This document shows, piece after piece, positions 2,962 to 4,482 of a stretch of 64,000 bases of DNA. Every line of letters starts with the position of its first letter. Position 1 is the first letter of the stretch. The notes beneath the pieces are model-generated. The model was not told where the DNA came from. It searched no databases and was given only the letters and a program-made list of their open reading frames with translations. A program made the position numbers and the translations under genes. The DNA comes from Dehalococcoidia bacterium (GTDB lineage Bacteria > Chloroflexota > Dehalococcoidia > Bin125). The stretch lies in contig JAJEJC010000005.1 of assembly GCA_022828105.1 (NCBI GenBank), forward strand, positions 248,001-312,000, read 5' to 3'.

Positions 2962-4482
2962 CTAGTGCTCTGCCGCCTCATCGTGGTGCTCGTCGTGGTC
3001 GCCGACCGCGGTCGAGGCGAAGACGAGCGTCAACATCGCAAAGACGAAGGCCTGGATGAATCCGACGAAGACCTCAAGGCCAAAGAAGACCGTGGGCACC
3101 ACGAAGGCAACCAGGAACATCGAGATAAACAAGACCACTTCGCCGGCAAAGATGTTCCCGAACAGACGGAAGGTGAACGAAATCACGCGTCCGACCTCGG
3201 AGACGATCTCCAGGATTCCGACAAAGACGCCCATCGGGCCCTTGACGATGGCGTGCGATCCGACGCCGATGTACTTGCCGAAGTTTGCGCCGATGCCCAC
3301 GCCGCGCATTCCGAAGTACTGCACGGCGAGAAATGACCAGAGCGCCAGCGCGAGGGGCAGGTTCACGTCGGAGGCCAGGGCGCGGAAGATCGGGAAGATG
3401 TGGCCGACGGTCTCGCCGGCGAAGCCCTGATCCTCCAGTTTCTGGACGAAGCCGATGTGGGCCGTGTTGACGGTCGTCAGCGCCGTGTCGCCCGAGCATT
3501 GTCGATCGTCCGACGGGAGACAAATCACGCCATCGCCGTCGATCAGGACGGGCTCGGCAAAGGCGTCGTACGAGAAGTCGCGCGGCGTGTCGAAGAGCAG
3601 GCGCGGCGGGATGATCTTGAAGCTGGATCCGCTCAGGATCGGCCCGGTGGCTTTGACCAGCTCAGCGTCCGCGGCGCTCAGCGGCAGGTTGTAGAAGATC
3701 GCATCGTGCACGTATTTCTCGCCGACCCCTGCGTGCTCCAGGCGTTCGGCCAGCGCGTACTCAAGTTCGGAGCCCTCCAGGTCGGCCGGCAGCGGGTTGG
3801 CGGCGAATTCGGCCCGCACGGATGCTTCCGTGTCTCCGATATGGCCTGCCTTCAGCTCGGCAATGTGGATGTCAGATTCAGCGTGTGTCTCCTGGAAGCT
3901 GCCCGTCTCGTAGTCGCTGAAGTGGATGGGCAGGAAGAACGCGTTCTGGAAAGTCTCGTTGATTCCCGAGATCAGAGCGGGGGTCAGCTCTCGCTCACCG
4001 TCTTCAAGGTCGTGTACGACGTCGATAACCGAGATTTCCATCTCGTGCAGATAGTGATAGCGGTAGTTCTCGACCGGGCCAATCACGTTGTTCCAGGGGA
4101 ACAGCGCGAACCAGTTGCCGATCAGCAGGAAGATGAAGATGGTGAAGACGAAGGGGAAGAACTTCTTGCCGTTGCGTTCGCCGCCGACTTGCTGGGAGAT
4201 GCCGAGGAACGCTTCGTAGATCGCCTCAACGAGATTCTGGAAGCCCGACGGAACCAGGGCCTGCTCGACATCGCGGGTGCGCCGCCAGACGAGGAACGCG
4301 GCGAACGCCAGCAGGACGATGACGACCCAGGCGGAGAGGATCGTGTTGGTGACTTCGTAGGAGCCGATTGAAAAGACGGGCTCGGCGGCGAGGGCGATGA
4401 CAGGCGCGGGAGCGCGGACGGCAAAGAAGCCGAAGACCGCGAACGCGAGGGTGGCGAAGATGATCAAGCGTCTTCGGCTCAC
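2962..4482 (-). CDS. atpB: F-type ATP synthase a subunit with large extra loop
   Basis: Stator subunit forming the two proton half-channels against the c ring. The family is normally about 230-300 residues; this one has 506. Recognisable pieces are a helix at about 46-65, the conserved [14 protein letters not shown] segment at 77-90, a second helix at 108-128, then [13 protein letters not shown] at 372-384. The essential channel arginine is R439 in [13 protein letters not shown], followed by C-terminal helices to about 492 and a His/Glu-rich tail. Between about 131 and 365 lies an acidic, mostly polar block with a close Cys pair (C321, C329), located where the family has a short extracytoplasmic loop. 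The start is GTG and overlaps the atpZ stop by four bases (GTGA). Confidence 0.93.

Follow-up and report, generated by a model that had tools for sequence, protein, structure and literature searches.

A predicted folded domain in the extracytoplasmic TM2-TM3 loop of a Dehalococcoidia ATP synthase subunit a, with two allele classes confined to the insert

In the 64,000-nucleotide stretch of Dehalococcoidia DNA analysed here (the window), atpB encodes an ATP synthase subunit a of 506 aa in which a 225-residue block (aa 136-360) is inserted between TM2 and TM3, and within the genus this block alone occurs in two diverged classes that do not fit the species tree. The pattern suggests that the insert has moved between species in two versions, under selection from something outside the cell. 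The reading that we favour, with a probability of roughly 0.45, is that the block is a surface-exposed accessory domain subject to diversifying selection and allele exchange, with a recognition or shield role, and is not primarily a tuner of the proton channel. Few components of energy metabolism are as constrained as subunit a, and the literature that we searched describes neither large outer domains specific to a lineage on this subunit nor such AtpB inserts; the one candidate paper concerned an unrelated N-ATPase.

The core of the protein and its operon are those of a housekeeping F-type ATP synthase. The atpB gene (positions 2962 to 4482, minus strand, GTG start) belongs to an atp operon with the order I/Z-B-E-F-H-A on the minus strand. 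An atpI/atpZ-like gene (ATPase_gene1, 94 aa, 4479 to 4763) lies immediately upstream, and atpE (subunit c, 83 aa, 2609 to 2860), atpF (subunit b, 163 aa, 1996 to 2487) and atpH (subunit delta, 179 aa, 1422 to 1961) follow, with atpA last. A genome search showed atpB to be single-copy, and a second copy was rejected. The protein matches the Pfam family ATP-synt_A (PF00119) at E = 8.3e-42, with 143.9 bits against a cut-off of 33.9, but the match is split into profile positions 3-79 and 77-216, with 225-235 residues intervening; as the pieces abut at 77-79, the extra block falls exactly between them. The conserved proton-path arginine, R439 (3166 to 3168, minus strand), is located in the penultimate helix, and neither this residue nor the [10 protein letters not shown] core changes across 77 relatives. 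The membrane fold matches solved a subunits, with Z scores of 17-20 to most bacterial and chloroplast ones and of 21.7 (247 residues, 36% identity) to chain T of the Chloroflexus aurantiacus enzyme (PDB 9itm and relatives). The E. coli (6oqr), mycobacterial (7njk) and chloroplast (6fkf) subunits share the membrane core, the conserved arginine and the operon position, but have about 250-290 aa and lack the block. The C. aurantiacus subunit (312 aa in total) has a moderately expanded TM2-TM3 loop of its own, but not the folded 225-residue domain. It also carries an N-terminal extra segment like that of the window's protein, where a signal- or anchor-like hydrophobic stretch (aa 4-26; 4405 to 4473, minus strand), ending near VIALAA-EP, may represent either a signal that is cleaved off or one more helix. 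By eye, the ion-binding glutamate of subunit c is embedded in EAIAIY, and the glutamine that we take to be the mark of Na+-type c rings is missing; coupling to protons is therefore probable.

The initial annotation had described a long subunit a with an acidic, extracytoplasmic block devoid of membrane helices, on a core with all its key residues, and this description was borne out. It placed the block at 3388 to 4092 (aa 131-365); we set it at aa 136-360 (3403 to 4077, minus strand). TM1 (aa 42-69; 4276 to 4359) is followed by a basic cytoplasmic loop, TM2 (aa 107-130; 4093 to 4164) heads to the outside, and TM3 (aa 372-390; 3313 to 3369) begins with [10 protein letters not shown], all on the minus strand. 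The order of the helices and the positive-inside distribution of charge, with basic residues following TM1 and preceding TM2, indicate the extracytoplasmic side, and the core match to the C. aurantiacus structure likewise puts the block outside the cytoplasm. The insert has a pI of 4.3, with 41 D/E against 12 K/R, and contains no membrane-like segment (no hydrophobic 19-mer above KD 0.81). The sole cysteines of the entire protein are C321 and C329 (CLPSDDRQC; 3496 to 3522, minus strand). The disulfide proposed for them is possible as judged from the sequence, but it is not a general feature of the family, the spacing being CX7C in one allele class (class I) and CX3C in the other (class II), with the pair absent from four other family members. 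AlphaFold2 modelled the whole protein with a mean pLDDT of 79 and a pTM of 0.68, the placement of the domain against the membrane not being well fixed. The pLDDT of the insert is at least that of the membrane part and lies at about 84-98 for the greater part of aa 141-280 and 301-350, with aa 191-200 and 281-300 weaker; the block is therefore predicted as an ordered domain of mixed helices and strands. Taken together, the model and the topology give good support to a folded block on the outer side. No relative of the insert by sequence or fold was found outside the window's family. There was no Pfam family at E = 1 and nothing among PDB sequences, and searches with Foldseek (PDB and viral libraries) and VIA-align gave no fold relatives, although these whole-model queries are a weak test of the insert.

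The reading frame stands up to comparison. The block lies in an uninterrupted frame in every one of the 14 same-genus genomes that have atpB and in genomes of three other genera of the same family (g2-g4), with TM2-TM3 loops of 240-270 aa throughout, and a frame error as the source of the long protein was rejected. Judging by the titles of its genomes, the genus is represented by metagenome assemblies, which might raise the suspicion of an assembly or annotation artefact; frame and length class are nevertheless equal across congeners and further genera from independent projects, and the probability of an artefact is negligible. A search for the insert in 240 genomes of the class gave matches confined to the window's family, barring one at E = 0.009 that we regard as chance. 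There is one insert copy per genome (two pieces in G002 are a single ORF) and no silent copy of the variable block within the same genome, which rules out an intragenomic cassette or phase-variable scheme. The records of the named relatives, classified as Dehalococcoidia or Chloroflexi, are assemblies of sponge and marine Chloroflexota; from their titles we read most of the window's family as sponge-associated. The nearest sponge bin, bin125, comes from a study of Aplysina aerophoba and is filed there as Chloroflexi only, unlike other bins that are called SAR202 (PMC5649159); the SAR202 label for the window's lineage is uncertain. In passing, five genomes of the class at 95-98% completeness (G031, G163, G121, G142 and G162) gave no PF00119 match, and may have no F-type ATP synthase or use another type.

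Mapping the insertion over Chloroflexota revealed a phylum-wide expansion of the loop that the initial annotation had missed, along with the two allele classes. We measured the loop from the end of TM2 to the TM3 aspartate in 217 sequences from a Chloroflexota search, a set that is unevenly sampled and includes a few Patescibacteria with short loops. Lengths range from 7 to 270 aa: 7-29 aa in 60 sequences, 30-99 in 81, 100-184 in 57 and 240-270 in 19, with none between 184 and 240. The 19 longest are the window's family, which forms a clade with support 1.0; in its nearest relatives the loop measures 67-137 aa. The TM2-TM3 loop is thus an expansion site throughout the class, of which this family is the extreme. 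The 151 loops of at least 55 aa fall into 25 sequence clusters, the largest with 76 members, and the window's family is a cluster of its own; hhalign found no profile similarity between its insert and other Chloroflexota loop inserts (probabilities < 3%). In another family (f44, L124-L129) the same site holds one or two Biotin_lipoyl-type (barrel-sandwich) domains, whereas the window's insert has no Pfam match at E = 1; the assignment rests on a Pfam E of 1.2e-12 for L124 (G186) and on clustering for L125-L129. These domains have no obvious MKM biotinylation motif. The loop contents being mostly unrelated, the site evidently accepts different domains. In the AlphaFold2 models of the window's protein and of another Chloroflexota AtpB, both inserts open with a strand, a long helix and a helix and close with a strand, and the edges of the inserts may share common descent across Chloroflexota loops.

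Within the genus, class I inserts are found in the window's genome (G000), G006, G001, G004 and G011, with G005 and G007 as a side branch, and class II inserts in six genomes; G002 carries a lone third type. Inserts of the two classes share about 53% identity, whereas the cores that carry them share 90-100% (98-100% in the C part of AtpB, 87-95% in the N part). Protein identities within and between classes are 89.6 and 52.8% for the insert, as against 91.3 and 90.0% for the N part and 98.7 and 98.9% for the C part. All 71 fixed amino-acid differences between the classes are in aa 141-360 (3403 to 4062, minus strand), and none elsewhere in the protein. The ratio of between-class to within-class dN is 5.0 for the insert and 1.0-1.15 for rpoB, secA, alaS and the atpB core. 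For the insert, dN is 0.375 and dS 0.84 between classes, and 0.075 and 0.71 within them. By pairwise counting, omega between classes is about 0.45, not above 1, and dN/dS within classes is about 0.1, with no frameshifts; the insert is under purifying selection within each class. In AU tests the insert rejects both the rpoB/secA/alaS species tree (deltaL 564, p < 1e-70) and the atpB core tree (deltaL 407, p = 3e-9), while ten equal-length control windows of rpoB, secA and alaS gave deltaL values of 8.5-45 against the same species tree. Thus G006 has a class I insert, 95% identical to that of the window, but its rpoB sister (bootstrap 100) is G008, of class II. Class II inserts are 69% identical to those of another genus and 53% to class I of their own genus, whereas the corresponding cores are about 78% identical to that other genus and 90-100% within the genus. 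Single-gene marker trees are partly discordant among themselves, so that recombination is common in the genus. The pattern of classes across species would fit transfer and ancient polymorphism alike.

Weakly constrained growth of the loop, in which tolerated insertions, divergence and ordinary homologous recombination leave a domain of no specific function, accords with loop lengths that form a continuous series between 7 and 184 aa in the phylum, with contents that are mostly unrelated, and with fast loop evolution in other families also. It does not predict purifying selection within classes in an unbroken frame, nor an ordered fold, and gradual drift would hardly produce a bimodal pair of classes; we find this explanation very doubtful. 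At core identities of 90-95%, the median identity of the loop is 73% elsewhere in the class vs 61% in the window's family.

The domain might instead be an anchor or assembly element, docking to an S-layer or envelope complex or bracing a second subunit a, with classes that track variants of the partner. The solved C. aurantiacus entries, the closest structures, contain subunit a twice per complex (chains T and Z), loop expansion is phylum-wide and reaches 62 aa in a Chloroflexus-like sequence (L170), and related isolates have an S-layer-like coat (PMC10444878). Against this, the class split is absent from the neighbouring genes tested, in the operon and just upstream, which reveal no co-varying partner, and the PDB copy searched contains no structure of a long-loop subunit a. 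An anchoring role is in our view unlikely.

In solved a subunits the TM2-TM3 loop is close to the proton inlet. The initial annotation had suggested on this basis that the block caps the channel and tunes ion access, and one could extend this to a domain over the periplasmic half-channel that responds to pH or salt. The position of the loop, at the outer end of TM2 and TM3, and the acidity of the insert agree with such a cap, as does the median pI of 4.4-5.1 of loops of at least 60 aa. A conserved tuner would not be expected as two such divergent classes cutting across species on near-identical cores, however, and the shortest loops suffice in 60 Chloroflexota sequences. Tuning of ion access found no direct support. 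The exchanged classes confined to the insert, the strongest new evidence, point to an interaction outside the cell, and we consider a cap unlikely.

An exposed block with diverged classes, constraint within classes, exchange between species and flanks that are not affected is typical of surface proteins selected by phages, antimicrobial proteins or host factors. Cultured SAR202 relatives from another genus are monoderm, with no peptidoglycan genes and an S-layer-like coat (PMC10444878), so that little shielding of the outer face of Fo is to be expected. For both reasons we favour the recognition or shield role. On this reading, a subunit a that is normal in all other respects has a folded accessory domain in its extracytoplasmic loop, which would lie next to the proton inlet but have no role in proton transfer. 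Exposed at the surface, the domain would make contact with an external agent or protect against it; candidates are phages, antimicrobial proteins, factors from a predator or host, and a partner in the envelope that itself varies. Selection by this agent would keep different alleles circulating by way of recombination in the flanks, which are conserved. More tentatively, and at less than even odds, one might speculate that in many Chloroflexota the subunit a loop is a slot into which unrelated domains can be plugged, and that an essential rotary motor thereby presents at the cell surface a recognition domain that is hypervariable and exchanged horizontally, its alleles in this genus being maintained by an extracellular antagonist such as a phage. 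The literature searched offered nothing useful on ATP synthase as a phage receptor.

A domain exchanged between species on a fixed protein would turn the ATP synthase into an exposed target at the cell surface. If true, this would bear on phage biology, on sponge symbiosis and on how membrane machines are protected in monoderm bacteria that lack peptidoglycan. The question is open to test in a cultured relative whose insert is large: in the SAR202 isolate Candidatus Lucifugimonas marina JH1073 (CP046147, L198), the core is intact and the equivalent site holds a large acidic insert in a 152-aa loop, although the cluster to which this insert belongs has no detectable profile similarity to ours (hhalign probability 0.1%). 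Among relatives of Lucifugimonas (L197, L061, L244 and L246), loops are 64-68% identical vs 91-96% for the cores, and the allele pattern may therefore extend beyond the window's genus.
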